64,000 bases of DNA, taken from NCBI GenBank assembly GCA_963922205.1, contig CAWUHX010000227.1:1-64000 (forward strand). The letters are read 5' to 3'. Of this stretch, positions 6,001 through 58,900 are shown in pieces. Source of the stretch: Romanomermis culicivorax. Taxonomy: Eukaryota; Nematoda; Enoplea; Mermithida; Mermithidae. Position 1 is the stretch's first letter. Every line of letters begins with the position of its first letter. The notes beneath the pieces are model-generated. The model was not told the DNA's origin. It made no database searches and saw only the letters and a program-made list of their open reading frames with translations. The position numbers and the translations under genes were made by a program.

Positions 6001-9000
6001 TTTGGACAATTTTGGCCTTTTGCATTTTCATGAAGAAATTTAGCATTTTTCTACAATATGAAGTTTTGCACCAAGTGAACATTGCGTATCAAATTTAAGC
6101 TACTTCTTTGGTTGTCGCCGCATTTATCGTTTAGATGAGATATAGAAGCATATTTAAGGCATTAGAAACCATAATTTAATAGCTTTTATCGGTTATTTTG
6201 ATTTCACTACTGACGAGTGAATGTTTTCACAACATATCTTCATGATTTTTTCTGATATCTTTGACCTGTACCACATCATATCTTAGGTTAAATCATCATA
6301 TTTCTGACCTGTATCACATCTTCATGATGCAGGCTCCTCGATGATCATTTTTTCTGAGCTGTTTCCTTGATGATGCAGACTCCTTGACAATCATTTTTGT
6401 CATTTCTGTGACAAGAACTGTGTCATATTTGAGAGATGGTAAGATAAATAATTGAAAAATCTCTCACATCATATTAATCACAAATATAAGCATGATATTT
6501 ATGTATCAGGCCCTTGCAAAAAAAATCCGTACTTCTTGATTCGTCTATCCATGAAAAACAGTGTAGCTACTAACTTTCAGTGCTTATTTGTTCGGCGCCT
6601 GAAATTGTTCGAGGAGAACTAAATATCAACAATAAAGCAGTCGACATTTATCAATTCGCCATGATCGCCTATCAAATTTTTTACAGGAAGCAACCGTTCG
6701 AAGATGCATCTTTGTCGCAGTCAGGTATCCTGAAAACTTATAGCAAATGACGTTATGATGCTCCACTTCATTTTTTTGTAGAAATCGTTCATCTGCTTAA
6801 AACGTTAGACTATAACGGAAATCCACTGCGACCTTCGTTGGCTCAAGTGGCTTGTTTCGACATAAAATTCCTGACGCTTCTAGAATTTTGTTGGGCAGAA
6901 AATCCAGCAGCGCGAATTGGTGCAGTGGCTCTAAAAAAAGAAATTTTTTCCTACACCAAGAAGTTGTGAGTAAAGATTGATAGATTTCTTTCTGTGTTGA
7001 ATTCAATGCCTCTCTTTTCGCTCATCAGTAGTTGATCTGAAAAATCCGTTTTCAAAAAAACGGATGATCTAAAAAGCCTGCTGGACCTCAGTCAATCATG
7101 TTATAATGTTCGGGCTTTTTCTTAAAATATCCTATGTACTCTGGTTATCCATATTTCAAGACTTCATATACATATGCTATCAGCTATTTTATAAGATACC
7201 TGTAAATTAAAAATTGACTGAAATCACTGCAATAGCCTGGGTCATATAAAGCGTTTACTACAGAATTTGGTTCTCCAGAAAAATTTTAAAAGCTAGTTGA
7301 ATATAGTCGTCAAAAGGTCGTACCTCAATTTGTTGAGTTTTCTGTTATCTATCTTCAAAAAAATAATCGTAAAACAACCAAAATGTCCGATTTTGCCAAA
7401 GTATATCAACCAGTTTATGATTTTTGAATGTGCATCAAATGCTCACATGCTCACACATGATACTAGAGTAATTTTGGCTTTTTTATCTTTATTTTTCCCA
7501 ATTTCCGGAAAATCCTGACCCTCAAGAAAATACTATTAAACATCATTTATAGCCCATTTAATTTAAAATGATAGGCGCAGTGAAAACCAAAAAAGTTGGT
7601 TCGACTTGATACGCAATTTTCGCTTGGTGGAAAATATTATACTGTCGACAAATGCCAGATTTATTCATGAGAATGTTGAAGGTCAAAATCATTGAACAAT
7701 CATCAGGTTTTTCACCGTCGATTTGGACAGAATTGTGTCGATACTTGAGTTCACCCGAGAACTTTTGATTATTTAACCCAGTCGTTGGAGAAAAATTTTA
7801 ACTATTCTACTTGCCGCTCAGTGAAGAAAAAATTCTTTCATTGGTTACAGTAATAAGATCACTAGTTTTTTACGTATTGAACTAACTTTCATCGAGTAAC
7901 TTCTTCGATCGTTTCAAAATGAATGGAGTAGAGAAAACTGACTACTCTACTAGTCTTCAATGTTACTATGGATACTGATTTTGAGGAAACGACCATTTCA
8001 GAAATCAAATAATGTTCCAACTGATTACGATTTTATATCTTCATTTCACTCGTTTCAGTGGTCAAAATTTGATGGATCATATACTCAACGTTTTAGAAAA
8101 ATATACAAACAATCTGGAAAAGATAATTGAAGAACGCACAGAAAAAACCAACGAAGAAACAAAACGGGCTGATAATATACTGTATCAAGTATTGCCAAAG
8201 TAAGACACCTTCAAAGACTTTTCAGTGCCGTCACGCATTCAAATTCTGTCTAGAATGGTCGCCAATGCTTTAAAATCAGGGCACCAGCTCCCGCCGGAAG
8301 TTTTCGACTCGGCTACCGTATGCTTCTCCAGCGTCGTCGGATTCAGAGAAATTACGACGAACAAGAAACCTACAGCAATTGTAAATACTCTGAACATGAT
8401 ATATAGACTCATGGATGATACAATCGCTAATTATGACGCTTATAAGGTATGCTAATAATGATCATATGATTATGCTTGAATTCTAAAATAATTAATGCAT
8501 GTTAAGGGGCATTCGATAGAAGCTTTAAAAACTTTTGTAATGTTACATTATAGTTGGTAAGAAGTCATTGTCAGCTATTATTGGCCTTAGAATCACATAA
8601 AAATGTGAAACACCTTAATTAGAATAATACGGTATCACAAACAATAATACAGTGGTGAGACGGTTCGGTACTGTACCTACTACCTTCTTCAGGCAATGAC
8701 AATTATATTTTTTTAAATAAACTCTTGCCTGCACTGGGGTTTGAACCCTTAACTTTGAGCTTGTGAGTCGAGAGCTGTAAGCACTGGGCCATCGGGGGGG
8801 GGGGAGAATTTGCTCAGCTAAATCTTGAAATAGAACCTTAGCTTAAATTGATGTGTGGCCTATTTCAATGCATTTTGTTCCCACATTGTTAGAACCTGCT
8901 ACTTCCATTTCCATTGTCTCCCTAATTTTTCTCTCGAAAGTGTTGCTTTCATGGGCCAGTATACTGGTGTTATCAAAGCTTGGCCTACACCCACACTTTA

Positions 9001-55900: not shown

Positions 55901-58900
55901 ATAGCTCCAGTTAATGTCCTCTTTTGAGTTGATGATGTTTTAATTATTGTCTAAATGCAAAAAGACTATGTTTACGATAGTCGAACTAATGAAGGTTCAC
56001 AAAAAGATTTTGTGAAAATAATCGAAAAACGTCTTGATTTTTTCATCGAATAAGTACATGATCAGGCATTTATTCAAAATTCGTTGATGTTAAAATTCTA
56101 TGGGCGGGCATTAACTAGAGAGAAATTTTCTAACCACGCAATGATAAATTTATAAATCATTTGAAATTCTGCGCGAAGCGCTGGAAAAATTTCTGTAATT
56201 TCCCTTTTAAAACACATACAATGCATTATCGGACAGGAAACTTTATACCCTAATCATAAGGACCGTCAGGGTCCAGGTTGCACCGTGCAACTTCGCAGTA
56301 AAAATTAGGTTGCATAGTCCGAAATTTGGTTGCTGTGTGCAAAAATAAAAAACCCTGCCCACAATGGACAGCGAGATTTGAAAAACTTGCTTTCAAATTT
56401 CAACGTTTAGAAAAATTGTGAAAAAATTGCACATATGGTAGAGGGTATTGTCCATCTAGTACATGACACCCACGACCTAGAAGGATCTGTAGTCAAAATC
56501 AGCCTGTTAAGAATTCAAAGGGCGAATTCGAGTTTTGTGATGAAATCAACTATTCACAATCTAACTTTAAGAGAGGAAATATGAGAATAAGTTCAGATTA
56601 ATTTTTTTCCAAGTTCGCAGGTTACGACAGAAAAAATAACAATTACGTGTGGTTTTCTTATGCACAGGATGGTGGCCAATGCTCTAAAAGGTGGGCATCA
56701 AATCGAACCAGAAGTATTCGACTCAGCTACAGTATATTTTTCGAGTGTCATTGGATTCAACGATGTTACTTTGAATAAGAAACCTGTTGTAATAGTCGAC
56801 ACCTTGAACATGATCTATCGACTTATGGACGACACGATTTCACATTACGATGCTTACAAGGTCATTGTTGATTTTTCAGTTCATGTTCAGGTTATGTTCC
56901 AAGCCAGTTAAAATTTTTATTCTGCAGGTAGAAACTGTACTGGATTCATATTTGATCGTTAGCGGTTTACCGACAAGAAATGGTATTCAACACGCTAGTC
57001 AAATGGCCGATTTGTCGTTGAAAATGCAGCAAGTATAGACTGTCCAGCGCACATTTCCTTATAGCTTCAAAAAACTTGATCTTCAGAAGCTGGTGACATA
57101 AATTTAGCATGTCTTCCGAACAACTACCTTGCATTATTTTATGAAATCGTGTTGTCAAAAAAATGTCAGATACGATCACATTTTTCCCCATCAAAATTTT
57201 GTTTATTATATTCTCTTTCCAAGTCAGATTGATGTCATATAAAAAAATTCAAAAATTTTCCATATTCAGAATTCAACGAATCAAATCAATTTATTTTCCA
57301 GTTATCACAAGAATTTTGTATACCGAATATGAAAGGTAGTCGCATGACCTTGAGGATCGGATTGAATAGCGGTTCCGTTGCGGCGGGTGTCATCGGCGTC
57401 ACTTTGCCAAGATATTGCCTATTCGGAGACACAGTTAACGTGGCTTCTCGTATGGAAAGCACTGGCGAACGTAAGTTGAAACGTTGAGTTTGTAACTCCG
57501 AATGGCTCAGATTCAGAATATGACATACGGAATGGTTTAAAAAACGGTTCGTTCACAGACTGGTTGGTGGAGCTTATGGAAAAATGACTCATTTTCTTAC
57601 TTTTCAAGGTTATATTTGTACTAATTTGACTGACGTTAGTAGACTTGGACTATACAGAAGCTATTCAGCGTTGAGCATCAACACGCATATTTTATGGTAA
57701 AAGTATCAGAACTGATATGAACCATGGTCTGAGCACTCCCACACGAAGTATAGTTCTCAAATTTCTTTAGTATCTCCTACATAATCATTCCCTGACATTG
57801 ACGAATCAATTCATCATTCAATCGATGAAATCTACATCTTTCGAATACCTACTGCGCAGTGATCTGGGCCCTGTTGCGTGTGTTGGGAGTTAGGAGTAAG
57901 AATGAACTTCCGGTTGCAGATGTTAAGAGCTAGTAAATTCGTCGTTTAGGTATTCAGTAGTAAATTAAGAAGAAAGGGCAGCTTTAGGGATAATATTCTG
58001 TTTGAATGGGTTGCAGATAAATTAGGATTAATTTTTCTGGAGTAATTTTAAATACAGACATATGTACAAAATCTCGTTTGTTTTTAGGGATTATTTTATT
58101 ATTGTTTTTGTGATTCATATCAACCAAGAATCAATTCATATATTCATAATTTTCCAGAATGCTTTCGCTTATCGTAGGTGCTGCAGAACTTGTAATAAAT
58201 ATCGACAAAATGGATCAAAAAAGTCAATAGGGTATCCGACAAAAACCGGATTAAATATACACTATTCCTACAGTTTTTCTTTTGAAAATAAGACGGATCA
58301 TTGCTAGTGTTTTCAAACAGGTGAGTGGCATTGATAACCAGCTAGAAAACCAAGAGAATCAGCTAGAAATGAACAGTTGTTGAGAAATTCCAGAAAGCGG
58401 ACAATTGACAAAAAACTGAATTTGCCAAATAGCTATTGGCATTACCCAGCACAAGCGTCATGGGGTTGGATCCACTGAAACCGCATGTGAATGCTTTTAG
58501 CAGTTGGATGTGGATATTTTTTCATTTTACTATGATTTCCGAGGGTTCTTTGCCAAACACATGAATAATTAGGAGATCGATGTCGCTTAATTCAATGTTT
58601 GAACTGTCAGTACCGGTTTTGCTTCCTTTGTCTAGTTTGTCTATGTTGTTTTTTTCATTTTTAAAAACTTCTTCGCGATGATGTAGCCACTGGTTGCCCT
58701 CTGGTTGCAACACATTCTGATATAATTTAGTTCCATAAATACCGTTTAGAATGCTGAGCAACGAACGAAAGGAATTTCCCGAAAAGCGTCTTTGCTTCTG
58801 GGAATATGTTTAAAAAATATCTTCTCTTCATGCAGGACTTTTTCTAAGTGAAAACCAATAACACAAAAAAACTCCGGAAAGTGCTGCCTCCTTTACGACT

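Follow-up and report, generated by a model that had tools for sequence, protein, structure and literature searches.

Can a receptor guanylyl cyclase that lacks one of its two metal-binding aspartates still contribute to the production of cyclic GMP (cGMP), and with what kind of partner? This question is raised by three head-to-tail receptor guanylyl cyclase genes, here termed A, B and C, on the plus strand of a contig from the nematode Romanomermis culicivorax. The window, i.e., the whole stretch that was analysed, is the first 64 kb of contig CAWUHX010000227.1 (assembly GCA_963922205.1, 359 Mb). All three genes have a Ser in place of the first metal-binding Asp (Asp 1), and all three keep the residues that recognise the guanine base. 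The gene products are probably half-site subunits, similar to the beta chain of soluble guanylyl cyclase (sGC) or the C2 half of adenylyl cyclase, which would rely on the metal Asp of a partner; this reading is drawn from patterns of residue loss and retention.

Catalytic site of genes A, B and C

Class III cyclases have catalytic sites that are each built from two chains. The first metal Asp of the atrial natriuretic peptide (ANP) receptor GC-A is within the motif FSDIVGFT, and genes A, B and C all have Ser at this position. A phmmer alignment of the spliced gene C product with GC-A places the Ser opposite the Asp of YFSDIVGF with no gaps nearby, and MAFFT also puts the Ser of A, B and C at Asp 1. 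An alignment artefact is ruled out as the source of the Ser by the agreement of the two methods and the gap-free surroundings. The first-pass annotation of this DNA had reported that Asp 1 is missing from all three genes, and the Ser codons and both alignments bear this out. The exons and codons of the site are as follows.

8254..8446, + strand: gene A, exon that encodes the first portion of the cyclase site
8330..8332, + strand: gene A, AGC Ser codon replacing metal Asp 1 (FSSVVGF), aligned to GC-A
10642..10746, + strand: gene A, exon with Glu (10645-10647), Leu for Gly (10654-10656) and the second metal Asp (10657-10659)
11014..11182, + strand: gene A, exon with the alpha-side Arg (11065-11067), guanine Cys (11128-11130), Asn (11149-11151) and Arg (11161-11163)
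11776..11778, + strand: gene A, Lys of GKG
27688..27880, + strand: gene B, exon that encodes the first portion of the cyclase site
27764..27766, + strand: gene B, AGT Ser codon replacing metal Asp 1 (FTSVVSF)
29728..29832, + strand: gene B, exon with Glu (29731-29733), Leu for Gly (29740-29742) and the second Asp (29743-29745)
29898..30066, + strand: gene B, exon with Cys (30012-30014), Asn (30033-30035) and Arg (30045-30047)
56668..56860, + strand: gene C, exon that encodes the first portion of the cyclase site
56744..56746, + strand: gene C, AGT Ser codon replacing metal Asp 1 (FSSVIGF)
56928..57032, + strand: gene C, exon with Glu (56931-56933), Leu for Gly (56940-56942) and the second Asp (56943-56945)
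57302..57470, + strand: gene C, exon with Cys (57416-57418), Asn (57437-57439) and Arg (57449-57451)

The remainder of the site is kept, as had been claimed. The Glu of VET, the second metal Asp (Asp 2), the Cys of YCLFGD, the Asn and Arg of NxASR and the Lys of GKG are present in all three genes, and the alpha-side Arg (in LRIG) is retained as well. Two other positions of the metal side are altered: the Thr at +5 has given way to Arg, Lys or Asn, and Leu takes the place of the Gly ahead of Asp 2 (VETVLDSY). An acidic residue, Glu or Asp, is found two positions past the GF in A, B and C.

Cyclases elsewhere in the genome

Matches to PF00211 are found at 67 or more places in the genome, and 23 stretches were fetched around them. 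The census models are of cyclase domains, spliced by a script that scores GT/AG junctions against references. The models of C37a, C6 and C11 end ahead of the Lys, and that of C413 closes in doubtful letters. Sixteen receptor-type genes were tabulated: A, B, C, C86, C21, C37a-d, C413, C6, C253, C30a, C30b, C7 and C50. Kinase-domain pieces are present in the fetched stretches of C86, C37a-c, C21, C253, C6, C30a, C30b and C7, and also in that of C361, a gene outside the table. None were found in the fetched stretches of C37d, C413 and C50, and these three are therefore classed as receptors by their placement in the tree.

An alignment with the receptor cyclases of the same genome had been proposed as a check, and it shows Asp 1 in 12 of the 16 genes. 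The four that lack it all have Ser; they are A, B, C and a fourth member, C253 (L044), which retains the VET Glu and the YCLFGD Cys. All of the Ser-bearing genes (4/4) retain Glu, Cys, Asn, Arg and Lys. C253 has no acidic residue two positions past the GF. Ser in four genes of one clade, against Asp in 12/16, is more than chance. Protein and family searches of the genome revealed no additional gene lacking Asp 1 beyond the fetched clusters, and the counts are lower bounds.

Three of the 16 genes have lost the guanine Glu, and each of these retains both metal Asp residues: C30a (Leu), C30b (Ser) and C50 (Gln). Their cyclase-domain models are free of stops. The Glu to Leu change is the single loss in C30a; C30b has also lost Asn (to Ile) and Arg (to Leu), and C50 has Arg to Lys and Lys to Thr. 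Both Asp, Glu, Cys, Asn and Arg are all retained in the other nine genes, where the last Lys is Lys, Arg (C413, with its doubtful model end) or beyond the model. C50 and C7, both with Asp 1 present, are also changed at Thr +5 and at the Gly before Asp 2, and C30b has Ser in place of Thr +5.

Further cyclases were found. C11 is a guanylyl-cyclase-like gene with both Asp present. C361 (L041) is degenerate on both sides of the site, with Asn at Asp 1 and Thr at Asp 2, and has a kinase-like piece upstream. C196 is a distant cyclase, and three more genes (C69, C301 and C12) encode adenylyl cyclases. Like C361, these four were built from hand-joined tblastn pieces with approximate borders and were kept outside the table and the main tree. 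C585 (L040) was omitted as a likely duplicate, being identical to C413 over its only piece. In keeping with a nematode source, PF01060, the largely nematode-specific transthyretin-like family, has 38 matches in this genome and none in 14 control genomes.

Distribution of the losses

Ten canonical rows, picked by us and with C7 left out, have 63 invariant alignment columns. Nine of these are altered in every one of A, B, C and C253 (Asp 1, +5, +11, +27, +43, +82, +84, +108 and +149), five of them in the first stretch (Asp 1 to Asp 2). At the columns of Glu, Cys, Asn, Arg, Asp 2 and the alpha-side Arg, all four genes have the invariant residue. In C30a, C30b and C50 the departures are at Glu and partly at Asn, Ser +122 and Arg; C50 deviates also at +5, +27 and +43.

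Adenylyl cyclases are similar at Asp 1. The C2 halves of adenylyl cyclases 9 (AC9) and 8 (AC8) have Ser at Asp 1, as do two of the three C2 halves of this genome's own adenylyl cyclases, the third having Thr. The C1 half of AC9 shares three changes with C30b (Glu to Ser, Ser +122 to Asn and Arg to Leu), and the genome's own three C1 halves differ from C30b in their letters at Glu, Asn and Arg.

Descent

A maximum-likelihood tree was made from 19 guanylyl-cyclase rows, and the AC9 halves were added in a second tree. A, B, C and C253 form one clade with support of 99/97 in both trees. This clade joins the canonical C37 cluster at 100/99 (97/99 with the AC9 halves). C30a, C30b and C50 are in another clade together with the complete C7 (96/98), and because C7 is within that clade the loss of Glu needs two changes.

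The Ser codon is AGC in A and AGT in B and C, but TCG in C253. The Ser may thus either have arisen twice, or have been held or regained during a codon change. The first-pass annotation had stated that the Ser predates the duplications. This holds for A, B and C, and the presence of Ser in C253 places it deeper still; a single event is left unproven by the TCG codon.

Gene structure

Exon blocks of the three genes were found by comparing stop-to-stop open reading frames (ORFs) among the copies, and splice positions and phases agree across A, B and C.

1782..11841, + strand: gene A, 16 exons seen, 730 amino acids, 2193 nt coding; Pfam Guanylate_cyc 3.8e-55
14772..30810, + strand: gene B, complete, 21 exons, 1048 amino acids, 3147 nt coding; ANF_receptor 1.4e-38, Guanylate_cyc 7.6e-54
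34914..59233, + strand: gene C, complete, 21 exons, 1063 amino acids, 3192 nt coding; ANF_receptor 3.3e-43, Guanylate_cyc 3.9e-54

Gene A is without its 5' exons because the window begins at base 1 of the contig; the part seen covers the last part of the extracellular domain, the transmembrane segment, the kinase homology domain, the coiled coil and the cyclase domain. No internal stops are present in the coding sequences of A, B and C. Internal junctions are GT-AG throughout the models of A and B. In gene C a single intron, the one that follows 45417, is inferred to be GC-AG; A and B have GT at this site. Intact reading frames and splice sites had been claimed previously, and this is confirmed with the qualifications that A is truncated at its 5' end and that C has the one GC-AG intron.

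B and C have an ANF-receptor-type ligand-binding region by Pfam, which in A is cut off by the contig start. A hydrophobic 19-mer (mean 2.9-3.1) ahead of the kinase domain represents the transmembrane segment. The kinase-fold domain is matched in all three genes (Pfam PK_Tyr_Ser-Thr, about 1e-16), and the Asp of its DFG/DYG motif is replaced by Asn (NYG) in 3/3 (4263-4265, 24689-24691 and 51218-51220). The canonical sister genes C37b and C37c read EFG at this motif. The closest solved relative of C is the ANP receptor GC-A (PDB 9bcv; phmmer E 1.5e-111). This alignment spans query positions 1-476, and a coiled coil is predicted from it. Pfam gave no match to a heme domain in A, B or C up to its cut-off.

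Several repeats are found in and near the genes. A (TAT)n array of about 240 copies is located near the contig start at 319-1035, upstream of the first exon seen of gene A. The gene B intron between exons 17 and 18 has an interstitial (TTAGGC)n array (28488-29123, 106 copies, 89% match), the repeat unit being that of nematode telomeres. A 172-amino-acid open frame on the minus strand (9173-9691) is within an intron of gene A; it presumably resembles the end of a Penelope-like reverse transcriptase and has no Pfam match. A dispersed repeat family, seen as repeated tblastn matches between non-coding frames, is present in introns on both strands (5750-6090, 7600-7940, 39200-40170 and others). Rfam gave no matches in the window at the gathering threshold. 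No exact copy of the SL1 leader was reported, in a search that skips very common words, so that its absence is not shown.

Constraint and divergence

Ratios of nonsynonymous to synonymous divergence (dN/dS) were calculated with our own NG86 script. For A and B, dN/dS is 0.097 (dS 1.35) over 212 cyclase codons and 0.136 (dS 1.09) over 568 cytosolic codons. The first-pass annotation had named a ratio near 1 as a refuting result, and the A-B values are not near 1. In the A-C and B-C pairs dS is saturated, and the ratios of the corresponding uncorrected proportions (pN/pS) in the cyclase domain are 0.199 and 0.189. Within the canonical C37 cluster, three pairs have dN/dS of 0.013, 0.067 and 0.038 at dS of 5.4, 1.7 and 1.7. 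A and B thus evolve under purifying selection that is weaker than in the C37 pairs. Identity of the cytosolic parts is 74.5% (A-B), 67.6% (A-C) and 65.5% (B-C).

Proposed half-site subunits and alternative explanations

In the proposed model, A, B and C would give one half of a composite site, i.e., the Glu and Cys that recognise guanine, together with Asn, Arg and the phosphate Lys. They would be poorly able to provide the metal half because Asp 1 is Ser. A homodimer would then have two incomplete sites, and each product most likely makes cGMP only when paired. The partner would be a receptor that retains both metal Asp, with which a mixed pair has one live site. Candidate partners in the genome are the alpha- or C1-like C30a, C30b and C50, or any canonical receptor cyclase. 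Ligand binding would act through the ligand-binding domain, transmembrane segment, kinase homology domain and coiled coil to bring the half-sites together, and the receptors may have a sensory role. The first-pass annotation had suggested inactive subunits for heterodimers. The heterodimer option is the best supported, but "inactive" is too strong in view of the complete half-site kept in all four Ser-bearing genes and the presence of receptors with the opposite loss.

The full retention of the base-side residues is a stronger argument for half-site subunits than is the complementarity of losses across the genome. The latter is suggestive, since by our own arithmetic three losses would all fall on one side in about 0.18 of cases per gene (10/56). 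Several other points weigh against the model. Asp 2 and the alpha-side Arg are retained in A, B and C, so the metal half has not fully decayed, unlike in adenylyl cyclase C2 halves, which have lost Asp 2. The changes at Thr +5 and the Gly are no mark of a dead metal half, since C50 and C7 share them with Asp 1 kept. The metal half of C50 is itself not pristine, and C30a has lost Glu alone. The A-B constraint of 0.097 compares with 0.013-0.067 in the C37 pairs, where dS is high. The existence of dead cyclase-like genes in this genome is indicated by C361, which is degenerate on both sides. The acidic residue past the GF in A, B and C could be of use to a homodimer. Passages of a review report that some sGC beta subunits are active as homodimers (PMC5225109), and ODR-1 and DAF-11 of Caenorhabditis elegans might also work as homodimers, according to passages of PMC8045692. 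The changes shared with C50 and C7, together with the mention of active beta homodimers in reviews, weaken the half-site model and strengthen the homodimer alternative.

That alternative is nevertheless improbable. It holds that A, B and C are active homodimers in which metal is bound by the Ser together with Asp 2 and, perhaps, the acidic residue past the GF, possibly with a preference for Mn. The presence of Asp 2 in all four genes and of Glu or Asp past the GF in A, B and C would fit this, as would Ser in both AGY and TCN codons, as though Ser itself were maintained. The acidic residue, however, is absent from C253. Ser is also found at Asp 1 in adenylyl cyclase C2 halves, where it does not bind metal. 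The active sGC beta homodimers noted above favour the alternative, and inactive human sGC catalytic-domain homodimers, described in passages of PMC3591389, argue against it. Somewhat less improbable, but still unlikely, is that the products are pseudo-cyclases with no catalytic contribution, i.e., ligand-binding receptors or dominant-negative partners that titrate active cyclases. The loss of Asp 1, the NYG of the kinase-like part and the existence of the more degenerate C361 are consistent with this. The retention of Glu, Cys, Asn, Arg and Lys in 4/4 genes despite dS saturation in most pairs counts against it, as a non-catalytic partner would not need all of these residues.

Signalling through the kinase homology domain rather than through cGMP is very unlikely. 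A kinase fold is matched, but the DFG Asp is Asn in all three genes, and according to passages of PMC1435932 receptor cyclases have no kinase activity in their kinase homology domain. The EFG in two canonical sisters indicates that such degeneracy is not special to A, B and C. It is scarcely credible that the three genes are pseudogenes or assembly artefacts. The simple-sequence arrays and transposon-like ORF in introns and the one GC-AG intron of C might point that way. They are opposed by 2193, 3147 and 3192 nt of coding sequence with no internal stop, by splice phases conserved among the three copies and by the A-B dN/dS of 0.10-0.14; the A-B ratio and the stop-free coding sequence rule out the pseudogene reading.

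An extension of the half-site model is tentative and perhaps somewhat less probable than its converse. The four C2-like genes (A, B, C and C253) and three C1-like genes (C30a, C30b and C50) may constitute a combinatorial set of up to twelve mixed receptors, in which the split into halves arose independently in receptors. An independent split is suggested by residues that have changed to the letters of the mammalian AC9 halves, i.e., Asp 1 to Ser as in C2, and Glu to Ser and Arg to Leu as in C1, the latter two in C30b. If true, duplicating the C2-like half in tandem would increase the number of ligand specificities, with shared C1-like partners doing the metal binding. Residue-level evidence from within one genome makes pairing rules of receptor guanylyl cyclases testable, i.e., which half-sites meet, and whether duplicating one half widens the range of stimuli that are sensed.

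Comparison with known systems

Literature listings on guanylyl cyclase pseudoenzymes and pseudocyclases contained nothing closer than the papers on ODR-1/DAF-11, sGC and NeoR cited here; the one pseudoenzyme entry concerns, by its title, the phosphorylation of GC-A. The canonical homodimeric cyclases GC-A, GC-C and the C37 cluster of this genome have the same architecture as A, B and C and are closest in sequence. Unlike A, B and C, they have both metal Asp together with Glu, Cys, Asn and Arg.

The base contacts of sGC come from beta. A, B, C and C253 resemble the beta1 chain of sGC alpha1/beta1, and C30a, C30b and C50 are alpha-like. Unlike sGC, the products of A, B and C are membrane receptors that carry a ligand-binding region and a kinase homology domain. 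In human sGC, as described in passages of PMC3591389, the metal Asp residues are in alpha, two phosphate residues (Arg and Lys) are in beta, and neither catalytic-domain homodimer is significantly active.

Several receptor cyclases of C. elegans have been proposed to be obligate heterodimers, as GTP-binding or Mg-coordinating residues are missing (passages of PMC5225109 and PMC8045692). The same passages describe chimeras of ODR-1 and DAF-11 that restored a response only with both present; formal proof in native cells is awaited and homodimers are possible (PMC8045692). Passages of PMC3754915, on DAF-11, name no catalytic residues. ODR-1 and DAF-11, compared here by description, are like A, B and C in the present reading in that nematode receptor cyclases are proposed to share one catalytic site. 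The difference is that the R. culicivorax genome has four Ser-bearing genes, three of them in tandem, and three Glu-lacking genes. The rhodopsin cyclases of chytrid fungi (NeoR/RGC) are also obligate heterodimeric guanylyl cyclase receptors, according to passages of PMC8815786. Unlike A, B and C, RGC1 and RGC2 retain all catalytic residues, and their need to pair is believed to originate elsewhere in the proteins (PMC8815786, same passages).

The C2 halves of AC9 and AC8 are like A, B and C in having Ser at Asp 1, and AC9 C2 retains Asn, Arg and Lys. Unlike A, B and C, the adenylyl cyclase halves share one chain, C2 is without Asp 2, and the base residues are Lys and Asp. Like adenylyl cyclases and sGC, the tandem genes may exemplify an enzyme site that has been divided into halves through the loss of residues at corresponding positions. 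The strategy is already known; what is new is these genes, the fourth member C253 and the complementary set in the same genome.

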